Assembly: GCA_947472885.1 (NCBI GenBank)
Contig: CANJBX010000010.1
Coordinates: 1-64,000 of the forward strand
Length of the DNA: 64,000 bases
From: Hyphomicrobiaceae bacterium
Lineage (GTDB): Bacteria; Pseudomonadota; Alphaproteobacteria; Rhizobiales; Xanthobacteraceae
Direction of reading: 5' to 3'
Made by a program: the position numbers and the translations under genes. Shown here in pieces: positions 10,437-57,258 of the stretch; positions within the stretch are counted from its first letter, which is position 1, and every line of letters begins with the position of its first letter. The notes below the pieces were generated by a model. The model did no database searches and was not told the DNA's origin. It saw only the letters and a list, made by a program, of their open reading frames with translations.

Positions 10437-10446
10437 GGGATATCCC

Positions 10447-10839: not shown

Positions 10840-10847
10840 AGATTCTC

Positions 10848-10970: not shown

Positions 10971-11097
10971 AAGATGCGAAAATCTTTGCAAGCTATGCAT
11001 TGCGAGATTGGTTCGTTTCGGACGCATTAGCCCGGCAAGGCTCGCGCTCGGCCCGCCAGAAGTAGTATCCTCGCTGGAATAACCGCAGGAAACGACC

Positions 11098-32600: not shown

Positions 32601-33186
32601 TGATGGCAAGCTCGAAGTCGGCGAGCGCGCGATCCCGGTCGCCCTTGCCGCGATAGGCCATCGCGCGGTTAAACACCGTCGGCGCATGTTGCGGATTTAG
32701 CTTGATCATGGTGCCAAGATCCGCAATGGCGAGATCGAACTCGCCCTTGGCAAAGTTAAGCTGACTGCGAATGCCTAGGATGTTCAGATTCCTGGGTTCG
32801 GCCTTCAGAACAACATCAAAATCCTTGAGCGCTGCGTCGAATTCACCTTTGCTCTGATACGAAAGACCCCGGTTGGTCCGCGCCGAAATAATCTTTGCGT
32901 CAAGCTGTATCGCCTTATCGTAGTCGGCAATCGCGCGGTCAAGCTCATTGCGGTCGCGAAGCAGGTTGCCGCGGGCGGTATAGACCATCGCCATGATCGG
33001 CGGCTGATCGCTCGCGGCCTGAATAACGGCGTTACAACTTTCGATCTGAGCGGCCGGCGCAAGATTCTCCCGGCCCAGACACGCATTCACCGCTGAAGGA
33101 TTTTGCGCCATTGCCGGCGCCGCAACAAACGCTGCAGCACATGCAAGAAATGCCCTGAAGAAAAGCCACGCCAGCCGCGTATTCAT
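26626..33186 (-). CDS. Giant exported TPR protein (62 tandem TPR units)
   Basis: A 2186-residue protein with a signal peptide (about residues 1-27, ending APAMAQ) and then almost nothing but tetratricopeptide repeats. I count 62 consecutive units of exactly 34 residues, of the consensus A-AFYNRG-AY--KGD-DRAIADFDQAIKLNP. The unit after VAYYEKSDFDRSAADFEQLIKIVPN is degenerate (contains SNRTASGDSARGYDQ; minus strand around 29640-29745) but keeps its length. Two units near the C-terminus are also worn. TPR arrays form a superhelix that binds partner proteins. This one should be periplasmic. No enzyme domain is present. The binding partner is unknown. It is divergent from the PBP gene. Confidence 0.92.
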   Translation of the reverse strand: MNTRLAWLFFRAFLACAAAFVAAPAMAQNPSAVNACLGRENLAPAAQIESCNAVIQAASDQPPIMAMVYTARGNLLRDRNELDRAIADYDKAIQLDAKIISARTNRGLSYQSKGEFDAALKDFDVVLKAEPRNLNILGIRSQLNFAKGEFDLAIADLGTMIKLNPQHAPTVFNRAMAYRGKGDRDRALADFELAIKLNPRDPLVFYTRAMLYKEMRSYDRAIADFTQALKITPGYGAALSERGVMYLAKGDADRAIEDYGQAIQLNPKDANLYNNRALAFRNKGETERAIADYDQAIDLNPENAIAFYNRGNAYYDRRDYDRAIADYDQAIKINPKYAPAYYDRGVVWYDKRDYERAIADISQAIQLDPKDPLGFFNRGITYRAKGDIDRAIADFDQAIKIDAKNSLPFYNRGLAFMEKGITDKAVSDLSQSIQLDPKNALAFYNRGVVYSERRDFDRAASDIDQAIKLNSNHAPSYYERGNIMLERKQYDSAIADLNQAINIRPNYPLAFNIRGLAYVGKNDTERAIQDYDQAVRLDSRLSAAYFNRGDAYQNMRDYDRAILDYGQAVKFNANYEAAYYSRGIAYREKGDTERALTDFGQVIKLNPKATSVYYNRGIVYKGKNDLDRAIADFDQVIKLDQRFVLAYYNRGASLYEKGDYAKAIADFQQTIKLNPKVALAWHGRGLAYRQQREDDRAIADFDQAILLDPKFVAAYDSRGNAFQSKRDYDRAFADYDLALKLDPKFAMAYNDRGTAHAAKGRPEKAIADFDQAIRLRANFDEAYNNRGLAFRAWGETDRAIADFDQAVSINPQYDAAFNNRGIAYRSKGDADRAIADFDQAINLNQNYDIAYNNRGLAYHGKGDVDRAIRDYDQAIRLNPKFDASLLNRGNAYLEKRDYERAIADYNQSISLNPRDAVAFNNRGSAYFERREFDQAIADLTQAITLNPNYDTAFFMRGNAYRNKGDADRAIADYDQVVKLNPKHAKAFGSRGAALLGKRNYERAIQDLTLALELSPEDVVVLNDRGIAYGAMGSPELAVADFEQAIKLDPRNAVAFNNRGFTYRIKQDIEHAIADFDQAIKLNQAYELAYYNRGSAHYDERDFDRAIESFTQAIKLDPKDAFALHDRGVAYYEKSDFDRSAADFEQLIKIVPNAATGSNRTASGDSARGYDQAIFNLNGTVKISTNFARAFNDRGISLAAKGDFDAAIADFDQSLKLDPGFSAAFHNRGNVYFEKRDFNRAIQNFDQATRFDARNVAAVRDRGIAYYEKQDYDRAIQNFDLAIKLDSMDAYTYYNRAIASYGKRNYDQAIGDLDTAIRINPQIALAFNIRGNVYSAKRDYDRALQYLNQAITLEARSPKAYNDRGLIYSARGDVDNAIADFDQAVALDPKNAAAFSNRGFAYSIKGQIDRALRDFDQATKLSPNQALTIYNRGNAFYDMRDFERAILDYDQAIKLNPADALALHNRANAYEIKQDYDRAIADYDQAIKISAASAGLLNDRGVAFMSKGEHDRAIADFDQAIRLDPKASQPFFNRAMTYRAKGDLDRAISDFDQALVSNRDYALAYYMRGNAYQMRRNFDRAIQNFDQAIKLSPANARAFHDRGISYSAKGDNDRAVADFDAAIKLDPKNAQAFNSRGLAYRNKGDTDRAIADYTQAVKMDPRYAIAFYNRGNASYAKRNHDQAIADFDQAIRIDGNYALAYYHRGLVNRGKRDFDRAQQDFSETIKLDSKNVFALNNRGLAYRTGGDLERAIADFDQAIKVDPKSSNAFHNRGVTFGLKGEVEKAIADFDQAIKLSADNAVYFNNRGFAHRIKGDPMRAIADFDQAIKLDPVYGAAFFNRGNAYYDQRDFERAIANYDKSIAINPNDARGFNNRGLSYHERQDAERAIADFNQVIRINPGDAAALNNRGFAWLHKGDTGRAIADYDQAIKLNANYALAYYNRGFVYYQKRDYVRAKQDISQAIKLNPNYAVAFDERSIAADDKREYDVSISDDDQAIKVGPSYVIALADMGGAFENKREGDRVTQEVIQALKVNTTQAIALYNRGNLAYGVRDYDTAIRSYDEALALAHSNADALSSRCGAKVLTGQIQEALADCNKALAFNPGDAKTLNNRGLIYLKQGQLAEAIADYDAALRINPKLPLALFGRGMANLMNGNETASAASIEAAKLLKPGIAEEFALYGVKMPER

Positions 33187-37681: not shown

Positions 37682-38137
37682 ATGCAGTCGCTGACAGGCG
37701 GTATCACCAAGGCCAACACCGGCATCGATGGCATCAGCTGGAATATTCTCGGCCAGACCTATGTGCCGAAGACCCTCAACGAGAACCAGTTTTCCTGGCA
37801 CGCGACCTTGCCGCCCGGCACCTTCGTGCCGCCGCACATCCACCCGACCCAGGACGAGTTCATCTATCTGTTCGAAGGCCGCATCGACCTGATGCTTGAC
37901 GGCCGCGACTTCGTCGCGACCGCCGGCGATGTCATCCGTCTCCCCATGGGTCTTGTGCATGGCATCTTCAATAAATCGGATCAGGTGGTGAAATGCCTTT
38001 TCTGGGTCTCGCCAACCCGCCGCCTCTACGACCTGTTCTGGGCCATCCACGGCATGAAGGAGCAGAAGCCGAACGAAGTCATCGCGTTGTCAGCCAATCA
38101 CGAAGTCATGTTCCTGCCGCCGCCTTCCGGCGCGTAA
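37682..38137 (+). CDS. Cupin-domain protein
   Basis: A 151-residue single-domain cupin. Both classic motifs are complete: GTFVPPHIHPTQDEFIYLFEG (HxH and E as metal ligands) and GDVIRLPMGLVHGIFN (third histidine). It can therefore bind a metal ion and may be a dioxygenase or isomerase, but the sequence does not say which. GGAG lies upstream of the ATG. It stands apart from the aryl-CoA genes but carries a matching operator-like palindrome, so it may work on an intermediate of that pathway. It is followed by a strong terminator. Confidence 0.85.
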   Translation: MQSLTGGITKANTGIDGISWNILGQTYVPKTLNENQFSWHATLPPGTFVPPHIHPTQDEFIYLFEGRIDLMLDGRDFVATAGDVIRLPMGLVHGIFNKSDQVVKCLFWVSPTRRLYDLFWAIHGMKEQKPNEVIALSANHEVMFLPPPSGA

Positions 38138-38162
38138 CAACCAGCTCCGGGTTCAAGAATTG

Positions 38163-38197
38163 AAAATGCGCGGGAACTTCTCGCGCATTTTTGTTTT
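38163..38197 (+). terminator. Rho-independent terminator
   Basis: A perfect 10-bp stem AAAATGCGCG (38163-38172) and CGCGCATTTT (38182-38191), followed by a T-rich run. It closes the cupin transcript. Confidence 0.88.
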
Positions 38198-38202
38198 GGG
38201 TC

Positions 38203-38353
38203 CGTCATTGCGAGGAGCGCGCCCCTCTTCTCGTCATCGCCGGGCTTGTCCCGGCGATCTCGACAAGGGACGCATAGTGCCCACCTAAGCGAGATGGCCG
38301 GGCATAGGCGAGTCAAGCGACGCGGTTCTTCGAACGGCGATGCCCGGCCATGA
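38203..38353. repeat. Palindromic intergenic repeats (REP-like)
   Basis: Two inverted structures: ATCGCCGGG-CTTGT-CCCGGCGAT at 38236-38258, and ATGGCCGGGCAT at 38294-38305 with ATGCCCGGCCAT at 38340-38351. The CCGGGC/GCCCGG core is typical of dispersed repeats in Bradyrhizobium relatives. The block lies between the convergent cupin and FAD-monooxygenase genes. Confidence 0.75.
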
Positions 38354-38379
38354 CGAAAGCAGAATTATCGATAAACGCT

Positions 38380-39633
38380 TCAACCCGCCTTCGCCTTGTT
38401 GACCTGTTCCTTGGCAAAACCCGCCGACGACGCATAGCCACGCACAATGGCTTTGCGCTGTTCGTAGCCCAGCACATCGTCAATATTGGTGAAACCGTCC
38501 GGCGCGCGTTCATCGATGGCATCGATGACTCCTTCCGGCCCGCCGACACGGTTCATGCGCACGATCTGCGCGGTCGGCGGCAATCGTTCGGTTTCATAGG
38601 CCCACAGGGCCTGCTGCGGATGCTCGGCACTGACCAGCCTGTCCGCCAGCGCACGCGCATCGAGGATTGCCTGCGACGCACCATTGGAGCCTACGGGATA
38701 CATCGGATGCGCGGCATCGCCGAGCAAGGTGACCCGCCCATGCGACCAGTGCGGCAGCGGATCGCGGTCGCACATCGGATATTCCCAGAACTCCGGCGTC
38801 GCTTGTATGAGTGCATGGGCATCGATGTGAGGAACCGTGACGCGCTTGACGTGCGGCATCAGGTCCTCGAAGCGGCCTGGCCGTGTCCAGTCTTCCCTGT
38901 TCGGCGGCAAGCCGTTGCCGCCGTCGGAAATCTTCACCTGCACCGCCCAGTTGGTCAGCATGCGGTCTTCGCGCGTACCCTGCGCAATCGGATAGACCAC
39001 GATCTTCGCGGTCATGCCGCCGGCAATGATCATCGAGCGCCCGGTGAGAAACTTCGGCCACTCGGTAGCACCGCGCCACAGCATCAGACCGTTCCAGCGC
39101 GCGGGTCCTTCCTTGGGATACAGCGTGTCGCGCACCTTGGAATGGATACCGTCAGCACCGATCAGGATATCGCCACGCGCGGTTTTGCGATGCGAACCGT
39201 TGCGATCGAAGAAATAAGCCGTGACGCCGCCCTCGTCCTGCGTGAACGAGCCGAGGCGATGGCCGATGAAAATCTTTGACTCGCCAATGCGCGCACGCAC
39301 GGCCTGATAGATCACGGCCTGCAAATGACCGCGATGAATCGAGAATTGCGGCACGTCGAATCCAGCATCAGTACCGCGCGGCTCGCGCCAGATCTCCTGA
39401 CCGAAACGATTGGTGTAGAAAAGTTCGTAAGTGCGGATGCCGACCTGATCGAGCCGGTCGAGCAATCCAAGTCCGGCCAGTTCCTTGATCGCGTGAGGCA
39501 GCGTGTTGATGCCAACGCCGAGTTCACGCACTGCGTCGGCCTGCTCGTAGATTTCGCAGTCGAGCCCGCGCGCATGCAGCATGAGCGCAGTGGTCAGCCC
39601 GCCAATGCCTCCGCCGACAATAATCGCCTTCAT
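38380..39633 (-). CDS. FAD-dependent aromatic monooxygenase (salicylate hydroxylase/PhzS type)
   Basis: A 417-residue class A flavoprotein hydroxylase. It has GGGIGG near the N-terminus (FAD dinucleotide motif), GADGIHSKVRDTLYP (DG motif) and VTLLGDAAHPMYPVGSNGASQAI (GD motif). Such single-component enzymes hydroxylate activated aromatic rings with NAD(P)H. It lies 150 bases downstream of the fused hydroxylase/reductase gene on the same strand and probably shares its transcript. Whether it acts before or after CoA activation in the pathway is not evident. Confidence 0.88.
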   Translation of the reverse strand: MKAIIVGGGIGGLTTALMLHARGLDCEIYEQADAVRELGVGINTLPHAIKELAGLGLLDRLDQVGIRTYELFYTNRFGQEIWREPRGTDAGFDVPQFSIHRGHLQAVIYQAVRARIGESKIFIGHRLGSFTQDEGGVTAYFFDRNGSHRKTARGDILIGADGIHSKVRDTLYPKEGPARWNGLMLWRGATEWPKFLTGRSMIIAGGMTAKIVVYPIAQGTREDRMLTNWAVQVKISDGGNGLPPNREDWTRPGRFEDLMPHVKRVTVPHIDAHALIQATPEFWEYPMCDRDPLPHWSHGRVTLLGDAAHPMYPVGSNGASQAILDARALADRLVSAEHPQQALWAYETERLPPTAQIVRMNRVGGPEGVIDAIDERAPDGFTNIDDVLGYEQRKAIVRGYASSAGFAKEQVNKAKAG

Positions 39634-39783
39634 GACACCCCGACGCTACACTTACAAAACCTGGGCTTTCCAGCCTCATCATGCCGGTTCGGGCAGTGCT
39701 GTTGCAACCTCGCCAGCCCGATATGGTGACTGGTGAAGATCATTTGTGCTGCCGGCATTAACCGAACCTGGTAACGCCCGCGT

Positions 39784-42129
39784 CTACTCCGCGGCCTGCT
39801 TCCACGTCGTGGCATGGCCCTTTGGCTTTGCCTTCAACCGCAGCTCCATCAGATCCTGCCGCTCGCGGTCGCTGTTGCGGAAGAGGGCGTCGAGGCCAGC
39901 CTGATATTGCGGCGGACAGGCGATATTCTTCGCGCCATACCACGCGGCCGCCTTCATGGTGAACGTGGGATCGACCAGATGGGGTCGCGCCAGCGCGACG
40001 AGGTCAGCGCGGCCGGCAGCCACAATAGTATTCACCTGATCCGCTGTGGTGATCGCGCCGACGCACATGGTCGCGATCCCGCCTTCGTTGCGGATCTGGT
40101 CGGAGAACGGCGTCTGATACATGCGACCGTAGATCGGCTTGGCTTCCGGCACCGTCTGGCCCGTGGAAACGTCGATGAGGTCGCAGCCCGCTTCGGCGAA
40201 CATGCACGAGATCAACACCGCCTCATCCCCGGTGACGCCGCCGTCCACCCAGTCGGTCGCGGAGATACGCACCGACATCGGCTTGTTGTCGGGCCAAGTT
40301 TTGCGGATGGCGCGGAACACTTCGAGTGGAAACCGCATGCGATTTTCGAGCGAGCCGCCGTATTCATCTATACGTTTGTTGGTAAGCGGCGAGATGAACG
40401 TCGCCAGCAGATAGCCGTGCGCGGCGTGCAGCTCGACCATGTCGAAGCCGGCGCGGTCGGCGCGGTGTGTCGCGTTCACATAATCCGCAACGATCTTGTC
40501 CATGTCGGCGCGCGTGAGCGCACGCGGTATCTGACTCTGCGGGTAGTATGGCAACGGCGATGGCGCAACGATCTCCCAGTTGCCGCTTTCCAGCGGCTCA
40601 TCGCTGCCTTCCCATGAAAGCTTCGTCGAGCCCTTGCGCCCGGCGTGACCGAGTTGAATGCAAAACTTCGTCGCGGAATTGGCGTTGACGAAATCGGCGA
40701 TTCGCTTCCACGCTGCCTCGTGCTCATCGCAGTAGATCCCCGTGCAACCCGGCGAGATACGCGCCTCGGCAGAAACGTTGGTCATTTCCGTAAACATCAG
40801 GCCAGCGCCACCGATGGCGCGCGAACCGTAGTGCACCAGATGCCAGTCGTTCGGCGTGCCGTCAGTCGCGGAATACTGGCACATCGGCGAGACGACGACT
40901 CGGTTCTCCAGCGTCATGCCGCGCAGGCGGAATGGCTGGAACATCGGCGCAGCAGGCTTTTCGACACTGACATCGAAGCCCTGATTGCGAACGTCGCGCG
41001 CCGTCACGCGGTCGATCTCATCAACAATGCCCGGCGCACGCAGGCGCAGGTTGTCATAGGTAATCGCCTTGGAGCGCGTCATCAGCCCGAATGCAAACCG
41101 CGTCGGGTCCATGTCCCGGAAACGATCGATATGCTCAAACCACACAAGTGATACGTCCGCTGAATGCTGGGTTTTCTCGACTTCCTCGCGGCGCGTCACT
41201 TCGAAATGCCTGAGCGCTTTCTTCACATCGGCGCCGCCAACCGCACGGAAAGCGTCGTACAGCGCGCCGGCGTCTTCCATCGCGAGCTTGGTGCCCGAAC
41301 CGATAGAGAAATGCGCCGTCGCCTTGGCGTCGCCGATCAGCACGACGTTGTCCATTACCCAATGATCGTTCGAGATGCGCGGGAAGTTGCGCCACAGCGA
41401 ACGGTTGATCATCAGCCGGTGGCCTTGCAGCTCTTCTGCAAAGACCTTTTCCAGAAAATCCGCCGACTGCTGTTCGGTAAGCTTGTCGAGGCCGGCGCGC
41501 TCAAACGTATCGGCCTGCACTTCCATCACCCAGGTCGAGCGGTTCGGCTCGTACTGGTAGCAATGCGCAATGAAGATGCCGTGTTCGGTTTCCTTGAAGA
41601 AGAACGTAAAAGCATCGAACGGCTTGGTCGAGCCCATCCAGGCGAACTTGTTAGGCCGATAGTCGATCTGGGTGCCGAACTTTTCCTGGTACGCGGTGCG
41701 AATGGCGCTGCCGATGCCGTCGGCGGCGACGATCAGGTCCGCATCGCGGTGCGCCGCGAGGGTCGGATCGACCTCGGTCTGGAACTTCATCTCGACACCG
41801 AGCTTTTTGGCGCGCTCCTGCAACAACCGCAGCAATGTCGTGCGTGCACAACCACAGAAACCATTGCCGCCGACGCGATGGGTCTTGCCCTTGAAGTTGA
41901 TCTCGACGTCATCCCAGTAGGAAAAGTTATCGATGATCGCGCGATAGGTTTCCCGGTCATATTTCTCGAACGTCGCCAGCGTCTGGTCAGAAAATACCAC
42001 GCCGAAGCCGAACGTATCGTCGGCCCGGTTGCGCTCGAATACCGTGACCTGCGTGTTCGGCCACACATTCTTCATGAGAATTGCGAAATAGAGCCCCGCA
42101 GGCCCGCCGCCGACGACATGGATATTCAT
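39784..42129 (-). CDS. Bifunctional aryl-CoA hydroxylase / old yellow enzyme reductase (salicylyl-CoA 5-hydroxylase or 2-aminobenzoyl-CoA monooxygenase type)
   Basis: A 781-residue fusion starting at the ATG at 42129; the frame stays open to 42753, but that part is antisense to the SDR gene. Residues 1-about 370 are a class A FAD hydroxylase ([49 protein letters not shown]). Residues about 395-760 are an old yellow enzyme ([67 protein letters not shown]). The same fusion is known in 2-aminobenzoyl-CoA monooxygenase/reductase, which hydroxylates and then reduces the aryl-CoA ring, and in proteins annotated as salicylyl-CoA 5-hydroxylase. The gene neighbours favour the former. Confidence 0.9.
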
Positions 42130-42169
42130 CCTCGCCTCCGCACCCGCGCAAAATGCACGGCAATCGATA

Positions 42170-42187
42170 TATTTTAAGCTTAAAATA
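42170..42187. promoter_or_regulatory. Candidate MarR operator 1 (perfect 18-bp palindrome)
   Basis: TATTTTAAGCTTAAAATA is a perfect inverted repeat centred on AAGCTT, 41 bases before the start of the fused hydroxylase gene, in the divergent promoter region. MarR regulators bind palindromes of this size. The likely binder is the MarR protein encoded in the rightward operon. Confidence 0.65.
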
Positions 42188-42226
42188 ATTTCCGGGCAAC
42201 GGCTCCTGGCCGCTTGCCGGTAAAAA

Positions 42227-42242
42227 ACTTCAAGCTTAAAGT
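42227..42242. promoter_or_regulatory. Candidate MarR operator 2 (near palindrome)
   Basis: ACTTCAAGCTTAAAGT has the same AAGCTT core as the site 57 bases to the left, with one mismatched pair. It stands 44 bases before the SDR gene, so each divergent operon has its own copy. Confidence 0.55.
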
Positions 42243-42285
42243 ATTTGAGTTCACGATTTTGCGTGATCTTGGACCGCAATAGAAC

Positions 42286-43047
42286 ATGACGGCGCTTGCA
42301 GGTCATCATGCTGTTGTTACCGGCGGCGGACGCGGCATCGGCCGCGCCATCGCAGCAGCGCTGACGGCCGCCGGCGCAAGCGTCACCGTCGTCGGACGCG
42401 CGGAGGCGCTCCTGAAGGAAGCCGTCAGCAAGGGCCACGCCCGCAGCTATCAGGTCGCTGACGTGACCGACGCCATGGCCGTGAAGGCTGCATTCAAAAA
42501 CGCCGCAGATGCCCACGGCCCGATCAGCATTCTCGTCGCCAATGCCGGCGGTGCGCAAAGTGCATCCTTCGCCAAGACCGATCCCGACACGTTCCGCCGC
42601 ATGTTCGAAGTCAACACGCTCGGCGTCGTTCATGCTGCGCAAGCCGTGCTGCCGGACATGATCGCGCGCAAGTCCGGCCGCATCATCACCATTGCCTCGA
42701 CAGCGGGCCTGAAGGGCTACGCGTATGTCTCGGCCTACGTTGCCGCAAAACACGCCACCGTCGGCCTTGTCCGCGCGCTGGCGGCGGAAACCTCGAAGAC
42801 CGGCGTCACCGTCAACGCACTGTGCCCTGGCTATACCGATACTGATCTCGTCGGCGACAGCCTGACCCAGATCACGCAGGCGACCGGCCGCACGCGCGAA
42901 GCGGCGCTGGCCTCGCTGCTCAAGGACAGCCCGCTTGGCCGATTGATCAGACCCGAAGAAGTCGCCGCCGCCGCCTTGTTCCTCTGCTCGAACGAAGCGG
43001 CCGGCATTACCGGCACGGCGCTGCCGATTGCCGGCGGAGAAATCTGA
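42286..43047 (+). CDS. SDR-family oxidoreductase (probable 3-hydroxyacyl-CoA dehydrogenase step)
   Basis: A 253-residue classical short-chain dehydrogenase: TGGGRGIG for NAD(P), NAG at the core strand, catalytic S and YxxxK in [22 protein letters not shown], and PGYTDTD after strand six. In an aryl-CoA pathway that runs through beta-oxidation-like steps, an SDR beside enoyl-CoA hydratase and acyl-CoA dehydrogenase probably oxidises a hydroxyacyl-CoA. This is from context. First gene of the rightward operon, and divergent from the fused hydroxylase gene. Confidence 0.85.
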
Positions 43048-43049
43048 AT

Positions 43050-43565
43050 ATGGAAGATGCCGTCACCATCCCGCTCGATGCGGAAACCAAAGCTGCCGAG
43101 CGCCCCGGGGACCACAAGGCCGAACTGCGCCTGTGGCTGCGTCTCCTCACCTGCACCACCCTGATTGAAGGCGAGATCCGCCGCCGCCTGCGCGATACCT
43201 TCGATGTCACGCTGCCGCGCTTCGACCTGATGGCACAGCTCGACAAGACACCGTCCGGCATGACGCTTGGCGAGTTGTCGTCACGCATGATGGTCTCGAA
43301 TGGCAACGTCACCGGCCTCGTCGAACGCCTCGTTTCCGATGGACTCATCGACCGCCGCCCCGCGCCGAAGGACCGCCGCGCCCAGATCGTCAGCCTCACC
43401 GCCGAAGGCCGCCGCACGTTCCGCGCCATAGCGCGCACGCACGAGGCCTGGATCGCGGAAATTTTCGAGAGCCTGTCGTCATCGGACACCGAGACGCTGA
43501 TGCGCATGCTGGCAAAGACAAAGACCTCGGCGGGCAACGCCATCCGTTCGGAGAAAAGCCGATGA
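43050..43565 (+). CDS. MarR-family transcriptional regulator
   Basis: A 171-residue winged-helix regulator. The MarR core is visible as [72 protein letters not shown], with the DRR wing typical of the family. It starts two bases after the SDR stop, and its own stop overlaps the next start, so it is autoregulated with the operon if it binds the AAGCTT palindromes. MarR proteins in aromatic-CoA operons are commonly released by the acyl-CoA, but the ligand here is unknown. Confidence 0.88.
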
Positions 43566-44395
43566 CCGCCGCCAATCCCGTCACGCTGCCATTGAGTACC
43601 TACAAGGCGCAGCATGTACGCCTTGAGGTCGATGGCAAGGTCGCGATGCTGACGCTCAACCGGCCGGACCGGAAAAATCCGCTGACATTCGAGAGCTACG
43701 CCGAGATCGTCGATATCCTGCGCGCCGCCGCGAAGGACAAGGAAATCAAGGCGATTGTCGTGGCCGGCGCGGGCGGGAACTTCTCGTCCGGCGGCGATGT
43801 GTTCGAGATCATCGGCCCGCTGGTCGAGATGGATACGGTGCAACTCCTTGCGTTCACCAGAATGACCGGCGAAGTCGTCAAGGCGATGCGCGCCTGCCCG
43901 CAACCGATTGTCGCCGCCATTGACGGCATCTGCGCGGGCGCCGGCGCAATCATCGCCATGGCGTCCGACCTGCGCATCGGCACAGCAACGGCGAAGATCG
44001 CCTTCCTGTTCAACCGCGTCGGCCTTGCCGGCTGCGACATGGGCGCCTGCGCGATCCTGCCACGCATCGTCGGCCAGGGCCGCGCCGCCGAATTGCTGTT
44101 CACCGGCCGCACGCTGGGCGGCGAGGAAGCCGAGCGTTGGGGCTTCCTCAACAGGCTCGCGGCGCCCGACACCGTGCATGCCGAGGCGAAGAAGCTCGCC
44201 GCGGAACTCGCGGCTGGCCCAACGTTTGCCAACGCCATGACCAAGCGGATGCTGGAAATGGAATGGGCGATGTCGGTCGAACAGGCGATTGAAGCCGAAG
44301 CCGTCGCGCAGGCGCTGTGCATGCAGACGGAAGATTTTGCCCGCGCCTATCGCGCGTTCGCGGCGAAGCAAAAGCCGGTATTCGAAGGCAATTGA
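43562..44395 (+). CDS. Enoyl-CoA hydratase family protein
   Basis: A 277-residue crotonase. The oxyanion-hole and CoA regions are [18 protein letters not shown] and [24 protein letters not shown]. The start overlaps the MarR stop by four bases (ATGA). It should hydrate the ring-opened or ring-reduced unsaturated CoA thioester, or hydrolyse the ring, as crotonases do in related aryl-CoA pathways. The precise reaction is not readable from the sequence. Confidence 0.88.
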
Positions 44396-44396
44396 C

Positions 44397-45584
44397 ATGC
44401 TCGACGAAACCATCCGCTGGCCGTTCTTCGACGACACACACCGGCGCTTCGCCGCGGACCTGTCGCGCTGGGCCGACGCAACCATTCCGTCATTGCCGCA
44501 TGACGATGTCGATGCCGCGTGCCGCGCGCGCGTCAGGGCACTGGGTGAAGCCAAATTTCTCGACGCCGTCGTGCCGCGCGCCTATGGCGGCAGCCATGAC
44601 TCGTTCGATATGCGCACGCTGTGCCTTGCGCGCGAAATTCTCGGCTACCGCGATGGACTCTCAGACTTCGCCTTCGCCATGCAGGGCCTTGGCTCAGGCA
44701 CGATCACCCTGTTCGGATCAGAAGCGATCAAGCGCCGCTATCTTCCCGCCGTGCGCGAAGGCAAGGCAATCGCGGCATTCGCATTGTCGGAGCCGGAAGC
44801 AGGTTCCGATGTTGCCGCGCTGGCGATGACCGCAAAGCCGGATGGCCCCGACCACTACCGGCTCGATGGCCGCAAGACCTGGATTTCCAACGGCGGCATC
44901 GCCGACTTCTATGTCGTGTTCGCGCGCACCGGCGAAGCACCGGGCGCCAAGGGGCTTTCGGCTTTCGTCGTCGATGCCGACACGCCGGGTTTCTCGATCA
45001 CCGAACGCATCGACATCATCGCGCCGCATCCACTGGCGACGATTTTCTTCGATAGCGCGCGCGTGCCCGCGGAGCATCGCCTTGGCAATCCCGGCGACGG
45101 TTTCAAGGCTGCGATGGCGACGCTCGATGTGTTCCGTTCCACCGTCGGCGCGGCAGCGCTTGGCTTTGCGCGGCGCGCACTCGACGAGATGACCGACCGC
45201 GCCGCGACCCGCAAACTGTTCGGTGCGCCGTTGGCCGAACTACAGCTTACACAGGCTTCGATTGCCGACAGCGCAACCGATGTGGATGCCGCCGCACTGC
45301 TCGTCTATCGCGCCGCATGGACCAAGGATAAAGGTGCACCGCGCATTACCCGCGAAGCCGCAATGGCCAAGATGTTCGCCACCGAGATGGCCCAACAGGT
45401 CATCGACCGCGCCGTGCAACTGTTCGGCGGCCTCGGCGTTACCAAGGGCGTCAAGGTCGAGGAGCTTTATCGCGAAATCCGCGCGCTGCGGATCTACGAG
45501 GGCGCAACCGAAGTCCAGAAAGTCGTGATCGCACGCGAGACATTGAAATTGCGCAACTCGAAACCGGCTTTGGCCGCCGAATAA
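44397..45584 (+). CDS. Acyl-CoA dehydrogenase
   Basis: A 395-residue FAD-dependent acyl-CoA dehydrogenase beginning at the ATG at 44397, one base after the hydratase stop; a longer frame runs back into that gene. Core marks are [32 protein letters not shown] and, towards the C-terminus, [40 protein letters not shown]. In the last, YEGATEVQ provides the usual FAD/substrate region. It oxidises a saturated CoA thioester of the pathway. Confidence 0.9.
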
Positions 45585-45598
45585 CTGTGGAGCAAGGC

Positions 45599-47245
45599 AT
45601 GAGCGCTTCCGCCCACCTCGACACATTCACCGCCGATAATCTTCCGCCGCGCGACGCGTGGCCCGAGTTTCGTTTCACGCTGCCGGAGTTGCGTTATCCC
45701 GAACGATTGAATTGCGTGGCCGAATTGCTCGACCGCTGGATTGCCAGTGGCAAGGGCGACCGCACCTGCCTGATCTCCCCCAATGAAACCCTGAGCTATG
45801 CGGCGCTTCAGGAACGCGTCAACCGGATCGCCAACGTGCTGACGCGCGATCTCGGCATGGTGCCGGGAAATCGCGTGCTGCTGCGCGCACCGAACTCGCC
45901 AATGGCGGCGGCTGCGCTGCTTGCGGTGATGAAAGCCGGCGGCGTTGCCGTGCCGACCATGCCGCTGCTGCGCGCCAGGGAAATCGGCTATCCGCTGGCC
46001 AAGGCGAAGATTGCGCTTGTCCTGTGCGACGGCCGCCTCGCCGACGACATGGAAAAGGCGAAGCCGCTTTCGGCGGAACTCAAGCGCATCGTTTACTGGA
46101 GCGGCGAAGCCAACGGCGAACTCGAAACGCTGATGCGCAAACCGAGCTATGAAAGCTTCACCGCCTGCAACACTTCGGCGGAAGATGTCTGCCTGATTGC
46201 ATTCACATCGGGCACGACTGGCGAGCCGAAAGGCACCATGCATTTTCATCGCGACCTGCTGGCGACCTGCGACAGCTATGGCCGCCATGTGTTGCGCCCC
46301 GACCCATCGGACCGTTTCATCGGCTCGCCGCCGCTCGCATTCACCTTCGGCCTTGGCGGACATCTGCTGTTTCCGCTGCGGGTCGGCGCGGCCTCGATCC
46401 TGATCGAACGCGCCGGACCGGATGACTTTCTCGCGGCCATCGAGAAATTCCGCGCCACGATCTGCTTTACCGCGCCGACGGCCTATCGCGCGATCCTTGG
46501 AAAACTTGCCGGCCGCAGGATTTCATCGCTACGCAAATGCGTCTCTGCCGGCGAGGCGCTGCCGCGCGCGACCTTTGACGCATGGCTCGCCGCCACCGGC
46601 ATCCGCATTCTCGACGGTATCGGTTCGACCGAAATGCTGCACATCTTCATCGGCTCCCCCGAAACCGAGAATCGCGCCGGCTCCACCGGCCGCGCGGTTC
46701 CCGGCTATGAAGCGCATGTGGTCGACGATGACGGCAACGACGTGCCGCCCGGCACCGTCGGCCATCTCACCGTGCGCGGTCCCACCGGCTGCCGCTACCT
46801 CGCCGACGCAAGACAGCGCAAGTATGTCCAGCGCGGCTGGAACATTACCGGCGACACCTACATGATGGATAGCGATGGTTACTTCTGGTACCAGGCCCGC
46901 TCGGACGACATGATCGTGTCCTCCGGCTACAACATTGCAGGGCCGGAGGTGGAATATGCCTTGCTCATGCACGCCGCCGTCGCCGAATGCGGCGTCGTCG
47001 GCGCGCCTGACGGCGAGCGCGGCATGATCGTCAAAGCCTATGTTGTCTTGCGCGCGGGCGAGACCGGCGATGCAGCAATGACAAAAGCGCTGCAGGAGCA
47101 TGTGCGCTCGACGGTGGCGCCTTATAAATATCCGCGCGCTATCGAATACATCGAAGCCCTGCCGAAGACACAGACCGGAAAATTGCAGCGCTTCGAATTG
47201 CGAAAGATGGCGGCGACGACCGCCGGCCAAAAAATAGCATCCTGA
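45599..47245 (+). CDS. Benzoate-CoA ligase family protein (probable 2-aminobenzoate-CoA ligase)
   Basis: A 548-residue adenylate-forming ligase from the ATG at 45599, with GGAG six bases upstream (a GTG four codons earlier is also open). The AMP-binding motif is IAFTSGTTGEPKGTMHFH. GIGSTEMLHIFIG and the C-terminal hinge DGYFWYQARSDDMIVSSGYNI and catalytic-lysine region PKTQTGKLQRFELRK follow. It activates an aromatic acid to its CoA ester with ATP, the first step of the pathway. The benzoate/2-aminobenzoate assignment follows from family resemblance and from the hydroxylase/reductase partner. Confidence 0.87.
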   Translation: MSASAHLDTFTADNLPPRDAWPEFRFTLPELRYPERLNCVAELLDRWIASGKGDRTCLISPNETLSYAALQERVNRIANVLTRDLGMVPGNRVLLRAPNSPMAAAALLAVMKAGGVAVPTMPLLRAREIGYPLAKAKIALVLCDGRLADDMEKAKPLSAELKRIVYWSGEANGELETLMRKPSYESFTACNTSAEDVCLIAFTSGTTGEPKGTMHFHRDLLATCDSYGRHVLRPDPSDRFIGSPPLAFTFGLGGHLLFPLRVGAASILIERAGPDDFLAAIEKFRATICFTAPTAYRAILGKLAGRRISSLRKCVSAGEALPRATFDAWLAATGIRILDGIGSTEMLHIFIGSPETENRAGSTGRAVPGYEAHVVDDDGNDVPPGTVGHLTVRGPTGCRYLADARQRKYVQRGWNITGDTYMMDSDGYFWYQARSDDMIVSSGYNIAGPEVEYALLMHAAVAECGVVGAPDGERGMIVKAYVVLRAGETGDAAMTKALQEHVRSTVAPYKYPRAIEYIEALPKTQTGKLQRFELRKMAATTAGQKIAS

Positions 47246-47255
47246 GGAAACAACA

Positions 47256-47675
47256 ATGCTGGACCGAAAAAAGCACACCCGCGGACCCGCCATTCTCCTG
47301 CCGGAAGGATGGCCGACGCCGAAAGGTTACGCCAACGGCATCAAGACACGCGGCGACCTGATCTTCATCGCCGGTCAGATCGGCTGGGATACCGAAGGAA
47401 AATTCGCGCAGGGTTTCGTGGCGCAGGCACGCAAGGCGCTGGAAAACGTCATGGCCGTGCTGGTCGAAGGCGACGCGGGCCCTGAGCATCTGGTGCGCAT
47501 GACGTGGTACGTCACCGATATGCCGAGCTACCGTAATTCACTTGCGGAAATTGGCGCCGCTTATCGTGACGTCGTCGGGCGTCACTATCCAACGATGACG
47601 CTCGTCGAAGTGAAATCGCTCGCCGAGCCGCAGGCATTGATCGAGATCGAAGCGACCGCCGTCTTTCCGGAATAG
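47256..47675 (+). CDS. RidA-family (YjgF/UK114) protein, probable enamine/imine hydrolase
   Basis: A 139-residue RidA protein with GAGGAAACAAC before its ATG. The family core is present: KTRGDLIFIAGQIGWDTEGKF, and LVRMTWYVTDMPSYRNSL with the conserved arginine that contacts carboxylates; the ending YPTMTLVEVKSLAEPQALIEIEATAVF is typical. RidA enzymes release ammonia from enamines or imines. In a 2-aminobenzoyl-CoA pathway the ring-reduced product is an enamine, so a dedicated deaminase here makes sense. This is inference. Its stop lies three bases from the stop of the convergent molybdenum-enzyme gene. Confidence 0.88.
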   Translation: MLDRKKHTRGPAILLPEGWPTPKGYANGIKTRGDLIFIAGQIGWDTEGKFAQGFVAQARKALENVMAVLVEGDAGPEHLVRMTWYVTDMPSYRNSLAEIGAAYRDVVGRHYPTMTLVEVKSLAEPQALIEIEATAVFPE

Positions 47676-47678
47676 CGA

Positions 47679-50075
47679 TCAGACCTTGCCGAGCGCCTTC
47701 AGGACGCGCGCCGGCGTGAACGGCATCTCCACCAGCAGCTTCGCGCCGAGCGGCTGCAACGCATCATTGAGCGCGTTCATGATGGCGCCCGGCGCGCCCG
47801 CCGTTCCGGCTTCGCCCGCACCCTTGGCGCCAAGTTCGGAATCCGCCGTCGGCGAGACAACGTGGCCGACTTCAATGTCCGGCATCTCGCCTGCCATCGG
47901 CACCAGATAATCCGCCATGTTGCCGTTGAGCATCTGCCCGCGCTCGTCGTAAAGGCAGTTCTCGAACAACGCACCGCCAATGCCCTGCACAATGCCGCCG
48001 CGCACCTGCTCATCCACAAGCTGCGGATTGATAATGGTGCCACAATCTTCGACGCACCAGTGCTTGAGCAGTTTCACAAAGCCCGTATCGGTATCGACCT
48101 CCAGCCATGACGCCTGCACGCCGTTGGTGAACGCGAAGGCGTAAGCACGCGGCACGTAATGGCGGGTCGCCATCAGTTCGGCCTGGAAGCCCGGTGGCAG
48201 CGTGTCAGGACGGAAGTAGGCAATGCGCGCAACCTCGTTGAGGCCGATGCGCTCGTTACCCGTATCCTTGTCGACCACCACACCGTTGCGAATATCGAGC
48301 ATCTCCCGCTGCGCCTGCAGAATGGACGCCGCAACCGCCAGCACATTGGCGCGCAACGCCTTGCCGGCCTGCCACGCGGCTTCGCCGCCGATGCCCGCCG
48401 CACGCGACGCCCAGGTGCCGCCGCCATAGGGCGTATTGTCAGTATCGCCCATGATGATGCGCACGCGCTCGATCGGCACGCCAAAAGACGATGCCGCGAC
48501 CTGCGCCATCACGGCTTCCGCGCCCTGCCCCTGTTCGCTGACGCCGGTATGCACAACGACGTTACCCTGCGCGTCGAGCTTCATGGCCGCGCCGTCCTGC
48601 GACGAAATATGCGCGCCGCCGACGCCGTAGAACGCCGCCGAAGGGTTGGTGATCTCGACAAAACTCGTGATGCCGATGCCGCGATAGATGCCTTGCGCAC
48701 GCAGGCGCTTCTGCTCGGCGCGCAGGCCATCGTAGTCCATCATTTTCAGCATTTTATCGAGCGCCGCGTGGTGCGAGAGCTTCTCGAACTTGATGCCGGA
48801 CGGCGCGGTCGCGGGATAGGCGTCATCGCGCACCAGATTGCGACGGCGGATTTCCACCGGATCCATGCCGATCTTCATCGCCGCGAGATCGACCAGCCCT
48901 TCCGTCACCGCAACCGCAATCGGATGCCCGACCGCGCGGTACTGACACATGACGTTCTTGTTCTGCATCACCACGGTGCACTGGCCGCGATAGTTCTGGC
49001 AGGTATAGGGCGCGGCCGTAAGATTGACGACCTGGTTAGCCTCGATGCCGCTGGTGCGCGGATAAACCGAGTAAGGGCCGATGCCGGTGAGGTCGTCGAT
49101 CTCCCATGCAGTGATCGTGCCGTCCTTCCTGACGCCGATCTTCGCCTTGACGCGGTGATCGCGCGCATGAATGTCGGTGACAAAGCTTTCCAGCCGGTCA
49201 GCGACGAACTTGACCGGACGGTTGAGCATCCTGGACAGCGCGACTACCGCCATCTCATCCGGATAAACATGTACCTTGATGCCGAACGAGCCGCCGACAT
49301 CCTTGGTAACAACACGAACCTGTTGTTCTTCCAGTGCCAGATGCTTGGCAAAAATATTCTGCATCATGTGCGGCGCTTGTGTGCCGTGATAGACGGTCAG
49401 CCGCTGCTCGCCTGGATTCCAGTCGGCAATGATGGCCCGCGGCTCGTTGGTGACGCCGGTGTGGCGGCCGAACACAAACGTCGTCTCGACGATTTCGTCG
49501 GCATCCTGAAAGCCTTTGTCAACATCACCGGCCTCATGCTTGCGCGCAAACGTGAGATTGTCGCCAAGCTCGGGATGGATGACCGGCGTGCTGGCGGCGA
49601 GCGCGGTTTCCATATCGGTGACGGCAGGCAGCGGCTCGTAATCGACTTCCACAAGCCCAACGGCGTCTTCCGCCTGTGCGCGCGTTTTCGCGACGACGGC
49701 GCACACCGCCTCGCCCTGCCAGCAGGCGCGGTCAATGGCGATGGCATGTTGCAGCGCCGACTTGATGCCCTTGAGATGGGTCAGCACACCCACCCACGGC
49801 GTCATCACCTTCGCAAGTTCAGGCCCCGTGACGACGGCGACAACGCCGGGAGACTGCTTCGCCTGCGCGGCGTCAATGCTACGGATACGGGCATGTGCGT
49901 GTGGTGAGCGCACGTAGGCGACGTGCACCATGCGCAGCAGCACAGTGTCGCTGACATAGTTTCCCCGCCCCTGCGTCAGGCGCTGGAGATTAGGCCGCGG
50001 CACCGAACGGCCAATGTACGAATTCGGCCGGTCGAGCGCGGAGAGTACGGACGGCTGATCGGGTGAGATTTTCAT
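47679..50075 (-). CDS. Molybdenum hydroxylase large subunit (xanthine dehydrogenase/CoxL-type)
   Basis: A 798-residue molybdopterin cytosine dinucleotide subunit. GGSFGIKVHVYPDEMAVVALS, YRGQCTVVMQNKNVMCQYRAVGHPIAV, TGVSEQGQGAEAVMAQVAA, GGTWASRAAGIGG and the catalytic-glutamate region LGAKGAGEAGTAGAPGAIMNALNDAL are all present. The loop that in CO dehydrogenase reads AYxCSFR and in form II proteins AYRGAGR reads QYRAVGH here, so it is neither CO dehydrogenase form. It probably hydroxylates an aromatic or N-heterocyclic carbon. It starts within the stop of the iron-sulfur subunit gene. Confidence 0.9.
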   Translation of the reverse strand: MKISPDQPSVLSALDRPNSYIGRSVPRPNLQRLTQGRGNYVSDTVLLRMVHVAYVRSPHAHARIRSIDAAQAKQSPGVVAVVTGPELAKVMTPWVGVLTHLKGIKSALQHAIAIDRACWQGEAVCAVVAKTRAQAEDAVGLVEVDYEPLPAVTDMETALAASTPVIHPELGDNLTFARKHEAGDVDKGFQDADEIVETTFVFGRHTGVTNEPRAIIADWNPGEQRLTVYHGTQAPHMMQNIFAKHLALEEQQVRVVTKDVGGSFGIKVHVYPDEMAVVALSRMLNRPVKFVADRLESFVTDIHARDHRVKAKIGVRKDGTITAWEIDDLTGIGPYSVYPRTSGIEANQVVNLTAAPYTCQNYRGQCTVVMQNKNVMCQYRAVGHPIAVAVTEGLVDLAAMKIGMDPVEIRRRNLVRDDAYPATAPSGIKFEKLSHHAALDKMLKMMDYDGLRAEQKRLRAQGIYRGIGITSFVEITNPSAAFYGVGGAHISSQDGAAMKLDAQGNVVVHTGVSEQGQGAEAVMAQVAASSFGVPIERVRIIMGDTDNTPYGGGTWASRAAGIGGEAAWQAGKALRANVLAVAASILQAQREMLDIRNGVVVDKDTGNERIGLNEVARIAYFRPDTLPPGFQAELMATRHYVPRAYAFAFTNGVQASWLEVDTDTGFVKLLKHWCVEDCGTIINPQLVDEQVRGGIVQGIGGALFENCLYDERGQMLNGNMADYLVPMAGEMPDIEVGHVVSPTADSELGAKGAGEAGTAGAPGAIMNALNDALQPLGAKLLVEMPFTPARVLKALGKV

Positions 50076-50560
50076 CGCGCACTTCCCGCGCGTGCCTGAG
50101 CGGTTGCTTCAACGGCATCGACGATGGCGTGATAGCCAGTGCAGCGGCAGTAGTTGCCGGACAGATGCACGCGGATTTCCTCGCGGCTCGGTACGCCACC
50201 ACGCAGCAGCAACTCCTGCGCGGCAAGCAACATGCCGGGGGTACAGAAGCCGCATTGCAAGGCGTTGCGCACGCGGAACGCTTCCTGCAGATCGGCTAAT
50301 TCGTTGCTGTCGGAAGCGCCTTCGATGGTTTCGACGCGTTTACCATTGCATTGCACAGCGAGCGTCAGGCATCCGCGCACGATCACGCCATCCAGGCGAA
50401 CGGTGCAGGTACCGCAGACACCATGCTCACAGCCCAGATGCGTTCCTGTGAGGCCGAGCGTATCGCGCAGAAAGTCCGCCAGCGTCATGCGCGCCTCAAC
50501 GGTCTCGCTGACCGCTTCGCCATTCACCGTCAGCGCGACATTATAAGCTGTGTCACTCAT
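50072..50560 (-). CDS. Molybdenum hydroxylase small subunit, two [2Fe-2S] clusters
   Basis: A 162-residue electron-transfer subunit. Plant-ferredoxin-type cluster ligands are C44, C49, C52 and C64 (LGCEHGVCGTC). The second, alpha-helical cluster uses CGFC and CRC (LQCGFCTPGM, GNYCRCTGY). It passes electrons from the Mo site to FAD. Both ends overlap neighbours by four bases (ATGA), so the three subunits are translated in a coupled way. Confidence 0.93.
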   Translation of the reverse strand: MSDTAYNVALTVNGEAVSETVEARMTLADFLRDTLGLTGTHLGCEHGVCGTCTVRLDGVIVRGCLTLAVQCNGKRVETIEGASDSNELADLQEAFRVRNALQCGFCTPGMLLAAQELLLRGGVPSREEIRVHLSGNYCRCTGYHAIVDAVEATAQARAGSAR

Positions 50561-51405
50561 GCACGCGCTTCCTGAAGCTGCCTGACCACGCGCCGCAGCA
50601 AGACCCCGGCGAGGTGCAACTTGACCTCCGCCGAGGATTCCAGGTCGGCGGTCGGCAACAGGTCTTTCGACAACGCCGCAGCGGCGCCATCGATATCGCC
50701 CGCGGCAATCGCACTTTCCGCGCCCCTCGCGCGCACCGGCGCATCGCCGACGCTGAAATAGACCAGCCGCACATCGCTCAATTTCGCCCCAGCCACCTGT
50801 GCGGCCGCAGCAAGACCGACAATGGCGTAGTCGCCATGGCGGCGCGCCAGCTCTTCAAAACCGACGCGCGTCTGTGCGGTCGCCGCCGGCACGTGAACGG
50901 CAACCAGCATGTCATTCGGGCCGAGCGCCGTCTCAAACATGCCCTTGAAGAAATCTTCTGCAGCAACGACGCGGCGGCCCTGCAGACCGGCGATTTCAAG
51001 TTTCGCGCCCAGCGCGACCATGCAGGCCGGCAATTCCGCCGCCGGGTCGGCATAGGCCAGCGAGCCGCCGATGGTGCCACGATTGCGAATCGCTGCATGC
51101 GCAATGTGCGGCATGGCGCGCGAAATCAGCGGCGCGTGTTTCGCGATAATGGACGAACGTTCGACATCGGCGTGGCGCGCCATGGCGCCGATCAAGACAT
51201 GCCCATCGGTCATGTCTATGCGGTCGAGGCCCGCGATGTCGTTGATATCCACCAGCATTGGCGGGCTGGCGAGCCGCATGTTGAGGGAGGCGATGAGGCT
51301 CTGGCCGCCGGCGAGAAGACGTGCCTCTCCGTCATGTTTGCCCAGCAGTTCGACCGCGTGTTCGATCGAATGCGCCTTGGCATAGGCAAATGCCGCCGGT
51401 TTCAA
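50557..51405 (-). CDS. Molybdenum hydroxylase medium subunit, FAD-binding (CoxM-type)
   Basis: A 282-residue FAD subunit with LLAGGQSLIASLNMRLASP (FAD pyrophosphate site), IRNRGTIGGSLAYADPAAELPA (second FAD motif) and the CO_deh_flav_C part. It starts at a TTG at 51405 with AGGGGCG before it. It is the first gene of the medium-small-large operon, and no dedicated MoCo-insertion chaperone (CoxD, CoxF or XdhC type) follows in this window. No regulator sits next to it, so the substrate cannot be inferred from one. Confidence 0.9.
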   Translation of the reverse strand: MKPAAFAYAKAHSIEHAVELLGKHDGEARLLAGGQSLIASLNMRLASPPMLVDINDIAGLDRIDMTDGHVLIGAMARHADVERSSIIAKHAPLISRAMPHIAHAAIRNRGTIGGSLAYADPAAELPACMVALGAKLEIAGLQGRRVVAAEDFFKGMFETALGPNDMLVAVHVPAATAQTRVGFEELARRHGDYAIVGLAAAAQVAGAKLSDVRLVYFSVGDAPVRARGAESAIAAGDIDGAAAALSKDLLPTADLESSAEVKLHLAGVLLRRVVRQLQEARA

Positions 51406-56469: not shown

Positions 56470-57243
56470 TCAGCGCGGCATTGCGTTGAGGCGCTTGACG
56501 AGGCCGTCGGCCGCGCCGACCAGCAGGCCGACTTCGGAGCCGACGGCAACAACCTGCGTACCGGCCTTCATGTAACGCTCGGCCTGCGCTTCGCCGCACA
56601 GGATGCCGGACGCCTTGCCGAGTTCCTTGCAGCGTTTCATGCCGGCTTCCATCCTGGCCATGACGTCCGCGTGCCCCGGCTGACCCAGCAGACCGGAGTT
56701 CGCCGCAAAGTCGTTGGGGCCAAAGAAGATCACATCGACACCATCGATCGCGGCGATGGCGTCGAGATTGGCGAGGCCCTTCGGCGTCTCGATCTGCGCC
56801 ATCAGGCAGACATTGGCGTTGGACGAGGCGTAATAGCCCGCCGCGTTACGGAAATAGTTGGTCGAGCGCATACTGCCACCGACGCCGCGATAACCCTGCG
56901 GCGGATAGCGCATCATGCGCACGACTTCGCTGGCCTGATCGGCGGTTTCGATATTTGGCACCATCAGCGCGTCGGCGCCAATATCGAGATAGGACTTCAC
57001 AAGGTTCGGGTCCTGCGACGCGATACGCACCACCGAAGCCGTATTCACATGCGCCAGCGCCATAAGCTGCGTGTGGACCAGCGCCGGATTGGTCGGCGCG
57101 TGTTCGGCATCGAACACCATGAAATCGAAACCCGACGACGCCATCACCTCTATCGTCTGAAACGACGGCAGGCAGATAAACGTGCCGAATAACTGGCGGC
57201 CTTCGCGCAGGGCCTTCTTCATCACAACAGACTTCGGATCCAT
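56470..57243 (-). CDS. HpcH/HpaI-family aldolase
   Basis: A 257-residue class II (metal-dependent) aldolase from the ATG at 57243, with GGAG nine bases upstream (a GTG five codons earlier is also open). Family signatures are FDFMVFDAEHAP, GADALMVPNIETADQA, GYRGVGGS, LMAQIETPKG and GVDVIFFGPNDFAANSG, where the E and D residues hold the metal. HpaI enzymes split 2-keto-3-hydroxy or 4-hydroxy-2-keto acids to pyruvate and an aldehyde, a normal end step for aromatic degradation. Confidence 0.88.
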   Translation of the reverse strand: MDPKSVVMKKALREGRQLFGTFICLPSFQTIEVMASSGFDFMVFDAEHAPTNPALVHTQLMALAHVNTASVVRIASQDPNLVKSYLDIGADALMVPNIETADQASEVVRMMRYPPQGYRGVGGSMRSTNYFRNAAGYYASSNANVCLMAQIETPKGLANLDAIAAIDGVDVIFFGPNDFAANSGLLGQPGHADVMARMEAGMKRCKELGKASGILCGEAQAERYMKAGTQVVAVGSEVGLLVGAADGLVKRLNAMPR

Positions 57244-57258
57244 CAAGAACTGCTCCAC

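Follow-up and report, generated by a model that had tools for sequence, protein, structure and literature searches.

Gene Organization of the Locus

The window, i.e., the whole 64,000-nucleotide stretch of DNA analyzed here, comprises positions 1 to 64,000 of contig CANJBX010000010.1 (assembly GCA_947472885.1) in the 3.88 Mb draft genome of a Hyphomicrobiaceae bacterium. Positions 39784-47675 are identified by sequence as an abm-type cluster for the aerobic metabolism of 2-aminobenzoyl-coenzyme A (CoA), which ends in a gene for a Rid-family protein, the main subject of this work. The gene for the fused 2-aminobenzoyl-CoA monooxygenase/reductase (ACMR) lies on the reverse strand (39784-42129, with an ATG start at 42129); its product has two Pfam domains, FAD_binding_3 and OYE (old yellow enzyme), and scores 1122 bits against NF006101 (cut-off 1078). 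Divergent from it, the forward strand carries genes for an SDR dehydrogenase (42286-43047), a MarR-family regulator (43050-43565), a crotonase of the PRK08258 family with an aspartate at position 159 (43562-44395; NF006107, 464 bits, cut-off 330), an acyl-CoA dehydrogenase (ACAD; 44397-45584), an anthranilate-CoA ligase, so assigned by homology (about 45599-47245, starting at ATG 45599 or GTG 45587), and the Rid protein (47256-47675; PF01042, 78.6 bits), which has Met114, Tyr25 and Glu130 and is called Met-type below. These six genes are closely packed in a single run, the intervals between them being 2, -4, 1, 14 and 10 bases. The SDR, MarR and ACAD genes were assigned by family scans and are kept near ACMR in other loci. 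Beyond the 3' end of ACMR lie genes for a PhzS-like FAD monooxygenase of the PRK07538 subfamily (38380-39633, reverse strand; NF005720, 582 bits, passing the cut-off of 400) and a single-domain, metal-type cupin of 151 amino acids (37682-38137, forward strand; Pfam Cupin_2, 63.6 bits). Every gene named in a preliminary description of this DNA was found again in the list of open reading frames and in the family scans.

The cluster type is already known and widespread, and the operon in the window adds one more member. The noteworthy part is the subfamily to which its Rid protein belongs, with an invariant methionine, co-occurrence with ACMR and a sister group in benzoyl-CoA reductase (bcr) clusters. 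The abm gene set is complete in the window, with the fused FAD monooxygenase/OYE, SDR, crotonase, ACAD and MarR in one locus. The abm cluster of Azoarcus evansii, reportedly described by Schuhle in 2001, is said to comprise a fused monooxygenase/OYE, a ligase, three β-oxidation-type enzymes and MarR, along with a Rid-type gene that was already listed as a “putative translation inhibitor”. Unlike the Azoarcus cluster, the window has the PhzS-like FAD monooxygenase and the cupin by ACMR, and no transporter in the immediate run.

The region of plasmid pAL1 from Arthrobacter Rue61a (NC_009453) shares with the window an ACMR (50% identical) and an anthranilate ligase (51.6%), which support the 2-aminobenzoyl-CoA-type pathway proposed in the preliminary description, as well as a Met-type Rid and a cupin gene. 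The pAL1 region differs in having genes for an FAH hydrolase and a thioesterase, its cupin is not a close homolog of that in the window (25.7% over 70 amino acids), and its FAD monooxygenase, judged from the segment aligned (26% over 128 amino acids), is no ortholog either. On the megaplasmid of Ruegeria pomeroyi DSS-3, the gene order is ACMR-SDR-MarR-ECH-ACAD-cupin-ligase-Rid, with a cupin 52% identical to that of the window. In contrast to the window, the cupin gene lies inside the operon between ACAD and ligase, a tryptophan dioxygenase gene is found alongside, and the stretch has no PhzS-like FAD monooxygenase. The same set of genes, with the Rid annotated as “RidA family protein”, occurs on plasmids of Paracoccus, Ruegeria, Roseivivax and Paroceanicella.

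Two draws of genomes were searched for ACMR at E ≤ 1e-250: one of 297 from the order, of which 98 have it, and one of 398 from the phylum, of which 71 do. A set of 101 ACMR loci was made up of the window and 100 of the 148 matches listed, with flanks of 8.8 kb where the contig allowed; 12 of these loci are shorter than 17 kb and 89 are at least 17 kb long. Partners above the bit thresholds were SDR (82 loci), MarR (78), crotonase (78), ACAD (68), ligase (70) and Rid (75), and Rid is present in 71 of the 89 longer loci. Because the partners recur around ACMR, the arrangement that had been described as an ordered set is not due to chance. The named Rid loci nearest to that of the window are from Xanthobacteraceae (69%) and Pseudorhodoplanes (67%).

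Ligase and Substrate

The most likely substrate of the cluster is ANTHRANILATE. The ligase of the window shares 51.6% identity with that of pAL1, a demonstrated anthranilate-CoA ligase (available part of PMC3534580), vs. 33.9% with the benzoate-CoA ligase of a locus, L240, described below. Its closest entry in the PDB is 4wv3, an anthranilate-CoA ligase. Against the benzoate-CoA ligase model TIGR02262, the window ligase scores 375.0 bits, marginally under the cut-off of 375.25, vs. 807 for the L240 ligase. Of the 101 ACMR loci, 14 contain a tryptophan 2,3-dioxygenase gene and 10 a relative of the α/β hydrolase that adjoins the R. pomeroyi tryptophan dioxygenase. Family searches of the window's genome found neither tryptophan dioxygenase nor kynureninase; a kynurenine origin of anthranilate in this organism was therefore rejected, and the anthranilate should come from elsewhere. 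The name of NF006101, “bifunctional salicylyl-CoA 5-hydroxylase/oxidoreductase”, is borne by ACMRs including that of pAL1, which has an anthranilate context, and may mislead.

The Rid Protein Has Methionine at the Arginine Position

In an alignment with E. coli RidA, to which the window Rid is 32% identical, Arg105 corresponds to Met114, Tyr17 to Tyr25 and Glu120 to Glu130. The AF2 model of the window Rid (pLDDT 92.9) has the Rid fold, with 5v4f as the best Foldseek match (TM 0.80), and a sequence search of the PDB returned no close solved relative (best score, 65.7 bits). RidA and RutC share with the window Rid the fold and the Tyr17 and Glu120 places, and RutC also takes a β-enamine, whereas both have an arginine (Arg105 and Arg104, respectively) in place of the methionine. 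According to the available parts of the sources, Arg105 of RidA binds the substrate carboxylate and its replacement by alanine nearly abolishes imine hydrolysis (PMC4433059); RutC is a 3-aminoacrylate (β-enamine) deaminase with the arginine, inactive as R104A (PMC8113886); Arg117 is among the pocket residues of AmnE (PMC6742747); and the arginine was proposed as necessary and sufficient to predict Rid deaminases (PMC5619798). By this published rule the window Rid, judged from its sequence, would not count as a deaminase.

All 75 of the close Rids from ACMR loci, which score 212-266 bits against a profile of their own, have methionine where RidA has Arg105; the 76th Rid of an ACMR locus (L134) is distant (34 bits) and has asparagine. 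The Tyr17 and Glu120 places hold tyrosine and glutamate in 76 of 76. When Rids were instead fetched by Rid sequence, by scanning named genomes with the stretch around TWY so that the methionine position was not in the query, methionine, tyrosine and glutamate were all present in 80 of 80 (the best 80 of 595 candidates). The actinobacterial Rid of pAL1, only 38% identical to that of the window, and those of P. denitrificans and R. pomeroyi also have methionine. Other PF01042 paralogs, of which 30 were inspected among 121 matches in 15 genomes, not randomly drawn, have at this place Arg (17), Ser (3), Trp (3), Asp (3), Ala (2), Asn (1) or Cys (1), and none has Met. The window's genome itself has seven Rid genes, six besides that in the cluster. 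By these residues, the cluster Rid is not an ordinary RidA. The label “RidA” in the preliminary description thus has to be dropped, and its view that the protein is suited to releasing ammonia as a standard RidA is not supported in that form, with Arg105 missing; it requires the additional argument about a thioester substrate given below. A ligase-Rid fusion considered in locus L107 was rejected, as the long open reading frame before the Rid has no ligase match and looks like out-of-frame sequence.

Co-Occurrence of Rid and ACMR

A profile made for these Rids (A1, E ≤ 1e-35), with the best 10-14 candidates scored per genome, found them in 99 of the 297 order genomes and in 69 of the 398 phylum genomes. 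The genome lists were compared by eye and a Fisher test was applied. In the order, 95 genomes have both Rid and ACMR, three have ACMR only (G114, G176 and G202), four have Rid only (G024, G047, G078 and G228) and 195 have neither; in the phylum, the corresponding numbers are 69, two (G557 and G608), none and 327. The two draws overlap, and their union of about 652 genomes gives 141 with both, five with ACMR only, four with Rid only and 502 with neither.

Truncated contigs seem to lie behind some of the exceptions. In G114, the contig with ACMR also holds a partial match to Rid, and in G047 an ACMR runs off the end of the Rid contig. In G024, an SDR-MarR-ECH-ACAD-ligase-Rid run abuts the contig start, where ACMR would lie, and single-domain ACMR relatives are found elsewhere in the genome. 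G078 is 76% complete and has a single-domain ACMR relative. For G228, a decayed Rid was considered and rejected, since the stop is the gene's own final stop. Starting from Rid, ACMR was found in 51 of the 80 Rid-picked loci and in 39 of the 50 with a length of 20 kb or more, and at least one of ACMR, crotonase, ligase and SDR in 71 of the 80.

Sister Rids

The Rids that rank next in the order genomes score 131-169 bits to profile A1, and 20 of these sister Rids were fetched. At the Arg105 place, nine have methionine (L238-L246), as does that of L249 in genome G228, while eight have serine and two isoleucine. Six of the nine loci (L238, L239, L242, L244, L245 and L246) have the Met sister Rid beside KorA-KorB, and all of these but L239 also have benzoyl-CoA reductase subunit C (BcrC) and an MDR oxidoreductase. 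L245 and L246 have tryptophan 2,3-dioxygenase as well; in L246, BcrC, KorA and the dioxygenase score above curated cut-offs and KorB just below one. The Met sister Rid of L240 adjoins the benzoate-CoA ligase. In a tree of 96 Rids made without column 105, the sister Rids group with the ACMR-linked Rids with an SH-aLRT of 94, below the level that the program stars; the tree requires two changes between Met and not-Met, and with 140 columns many of its forks are unresolved.

Two further types of locus were observed. Close to the Met-type Rid of L249 are genes for crotonase, SDR, ferredoxin and a P450-like protein, possibly another aryl-CoA pathway. The Ser-type sister Rids (L250-L257) come from eight genomes of the window's family, and the loci inspected have no evident catabolic neighbors.

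Proposed Reaction of the Met-Type Rid

Homology shows which enzymes the operon encodes and in what order they come. The ligase would convert anthranilate to anthraniloyl-CoA, and ACMR would hydroxylate and reduce the ring to give 2-amino-5-oxocyclohex-1-ene-1-carbonyl-CoA, as in Azoarcus, a product that is a β-enamino thioester. We infer that the Met-type Rid acts at this point, hydrolyzing the C-NH2 bond to yield ammonia and 2,5-dioxocyclohexane-carbonyl-CoA, which the crotonase, SDR and ACAD would then open and shorten. Tyr25 and Glu130 would preserve the Rid site, and Met114 may stand in place of the carboxylate-binding arginine because the carboxyl group is bound as the CoA thioester. We rate hydrolysis of the enamine-CoA as the most likely reaction, since the ACMR product has a thioester rather than a carboxylate, so that a charged residue to pair with it would be of no use, and its amino group is β to the carboxyl as in the substrate of RutC. 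The Rid fold is capable of such chemistry, as RutC deaminates the β-enamine 3-aminoacrylate. The FAD monooxygenase and the cupin would form a separate accessory pair, feeding the pathway or branching off from it. Taken together, we consider this account of the operon probable, if with some reserve.

In the portions of the open-licence literature available, no enzyme is assigned to the loss of the amino group in the anthranilate-CoA pathway, in agreement with the preliminary description, and no Rid is assigned to this pathway, including in PMC2842291, PMC4539516 and PMC7118221. The closest case is a predicted Rid in the Thauera BoxR regulon, as given in part of PMC6449761. Anthranilate-grown Rue61a holds a CoA ester with C7H8O4, the formula of the deaminated product, which the authors stated might be cyclohexanedione-carboxyl-CoA (PMC3534580, available part).

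Several observations weigh against the proposed hydrolysis. The extracts that yielded the C7H8O4 ester had been prepared under acid conditions (formic acid and a buffer of pH 3.5; same part of PMC3534580), and the enamine is acid-unstable, so that the ester may be an artefact of non-enzymatic loss of ammonia. As far as the available sections of PMC4433059 and PMC8113886 go, the Rid deaminases described keep the arginine, and RidA and RutC are inactive without it. Cupriavidus metallidurans CH34 has abm genes and grows on salicylate, for which other routes may serve, but not on anthranilate (PMC8879955, in part). No Rid lies within reach in 26 of the 101 ACMR loci, some of them cut by contig ends, and the stretch examined of a Comamonas plasmid has no Rid. 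G228 is a true exception to the co-occurrence: its Met-type Rid is intact, but the genome lacks a full ACMR. Furthermore, the tallied genomes are related rather than independent and only 10-14 Rid candidates were scored in each, so that the outcome of the Fisher test cannot be taken as a fair measure of probability. To our knowledge, no activity of any Met-type Rid has been measured.

The ammonia could alternatively be lost spontaneously or via the crotonase, with the Met-type Rid serving as a pathway enzyme other than a deaminase on esters derived from aryl-CoA, for example by hydrating, tautomerizing or helping to cleave the dione or enone ring. The absence of the arginine, the accepted mark of Rid deaminases, speaks for such a role, as do the sister Met-Rids in benzoyl-CoA reductase clusters; the usual substrates of benzoyl-CoA reductase have no amino group. 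However, the Tyr17 and Glu120 places are kept throughout (76/76 and 80/80), and the presence of tryptophan dioxygenase in L245 and L246 makes nitrogen plausible in the bcr-type loci too. We hold this role to be unlikely, though it deserves some weight. It is rather more doubtful that the protein controls damage by a reactive by-product of ACMR, for instance a quinone-imine or an imine from 5-hydroxyanthraniloyl-CoA, outside the main line of the pathway. In the available parts of the sources, 5-hydroxyanthraniloyl-CoA arises when NADH is limiting (PMC3534580) and Rid proteins often pre-empt damage (PMC4433059). The nearly one-to-one co-occurrence with ACMR and the presence of Rid within 75 of the 101 loci, on the other hand, suit a main step at least equally well.

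It is very unlikely that the cluster serves the breakdown of salicylate or some other ortho-substituted benzoate and that the job of the Rid is an unrelated one. The name of NF006101 together with the ACMR score and the growth of CH34 on salicylate would fit such a cluster, but the ligase is closer to one proven on anthranilate, tryptophan dioxygenase and the α/β hydrolase relative recur in ACMR loci, and, according to a review (PMC6221969, in part), it has been proven genetically that an indole degrader depends on a 2-aminobenzoyl-CoA gene cluster to use anthranilate. Ordinary RidA housekeeping against 2-aminoacrylate, with an accidental place in the operon, is hardly credible: the Rid fold is consistent with it, but Arg105 is missing, the genome has six other Rid genes, and the linkage and co-occurrence with ACMR go far beyond accident. 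Hydrolysis of the enamine-CoA thus remains the reading that we prefer for the operon.

More widely, the Met-Rids might constitute an unrecognized subfamily of enamine deaminases for dearomatized aryl-CoA thioesters, at work in both the aerobic clusters with ACMR and the anaerobic benzoyl-CoA reductase clusters (BcrC-KorA-KorB-Rid-MDR, in some cases along with tryptophan dioxygenase), where they would expel ammonia from reduced 2-aminobenzoyl-CoA. We offer this extension tentatively, as a possibility that we do not favor.

Crotonase, Accessory Pair and Other Regions of the Window

The gene that the preliminary description had called a hydratase is indeed a crotonase gene, but the label needed correction. 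Asp159 is found in 128 of 128 relatives scoring above 340 bits, aligned with the Asp of PaaG-type proteins, which is presumably catalytic. Classical enoyl-CoA hydratases have two catalytic glutamates; the crotonase has no glutamate at the three columns inspected (130, 131 and 151), in an alignment that included no characterized hydratase. A putative role in C-C cleavage or as an isomerase during ring opening is plausible.

The metal ligands of the cupin (HxHxxxxE and H) are invariant in nine rows, and its nearest solved relatives by sequence and fold are quercetin 2,4-dioxygenases (Foldseek 8hfb/2h0v, TM (query) 0.73-0.75). The closest PDB entries to the FAD monooxygenase are 2rgj/3c96, “flavin-containing monooxygenase”, which we take to be PhzS. 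Among the 101 ACMR loci, 19 have the cupin, 18 the FAD monooxygenase and 16 (the window and 15 others) both, adjacent with gaps of up to 244 bases; both are also found in eight of the 80 Rid-picked loci. The two genes come after a Liv-type ABC importer, as part of the same run, in Roseivivax, Paroceanicella and plasmid pLA6; the pLA6 stretch examined has no ACMR. Since the pairing recurs across loci, the two genes are a recurring accessory module rather than an oddity of the window.

One idea is that the pair forms a quinolone route, with hydroxylation followed by quercetinase-like ring cleavage to an N-acyl anthranilate, as the nearest folds of the cupin might suggest. The FAD monooxygenase, however, is not orthologous to that of pAL1, and the cupin also occurs without it (ACMR loci L102, L159 and L161 and R. 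pomeroyi) and often distant from ACMR (71 of the 297 order genomes have such a cupin at E ≤ 1e-28). Moreover, in two Acetobacteraceae the PhzS-like FAD monooxygenase is fused to a PRK06143 crotonase (L296:861-2876 and L297:7658-9667), near a Met-Rid in both and with a cupin too in L296, which points to CoA esters.

A three-subunit molybdenum hydroxylase of the CoxL/xanthine dehydrogenase family (47679-51405) lies on the opposite strand and ends 3 bases from rid. Searches with its large subunit gave nothing among the 100 other ACMR loci (E ≤ 1e-4) and only a single weak match, in L351 (42.6 bits), among the 80 Rid loci (E ≤ 1e-6). It was rejected as a member of the cluster, there being no close large-subunit homolog in 180 related loci, although a 30% identical one is found near the R. 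pomeroyi operon and weaker relatives near the sister Rids of L240 and L243. Elsewhere in the window, a further catabolic region may lie at 2281-12453, where genes for an FAA hydrolase, an FMO-like enzyme, luciferase-like monooxygenases and a BKACE are found close to a peptide-type ABC transporter; positions 26626-33186 encode a protein of 2186 amino acids that consists almost entirely of TPR-like repeats; and at 56470-58605 an HpaI-type aldolase adjoins a LigXa-like Rieske oxygenase.

Implications

The Met-Rids either break the arginine rule for Rid proteins or reveal a new Rid reaction, and either outcome alters the annotation of “RidA family” genes in catabolic operons. If the proposal for the subfamily is true, the Met-Rids would be the first deaminases of the Rid family to lack the “essential” arginine, and the methionine would mark a thioester in place of a carboxylate.

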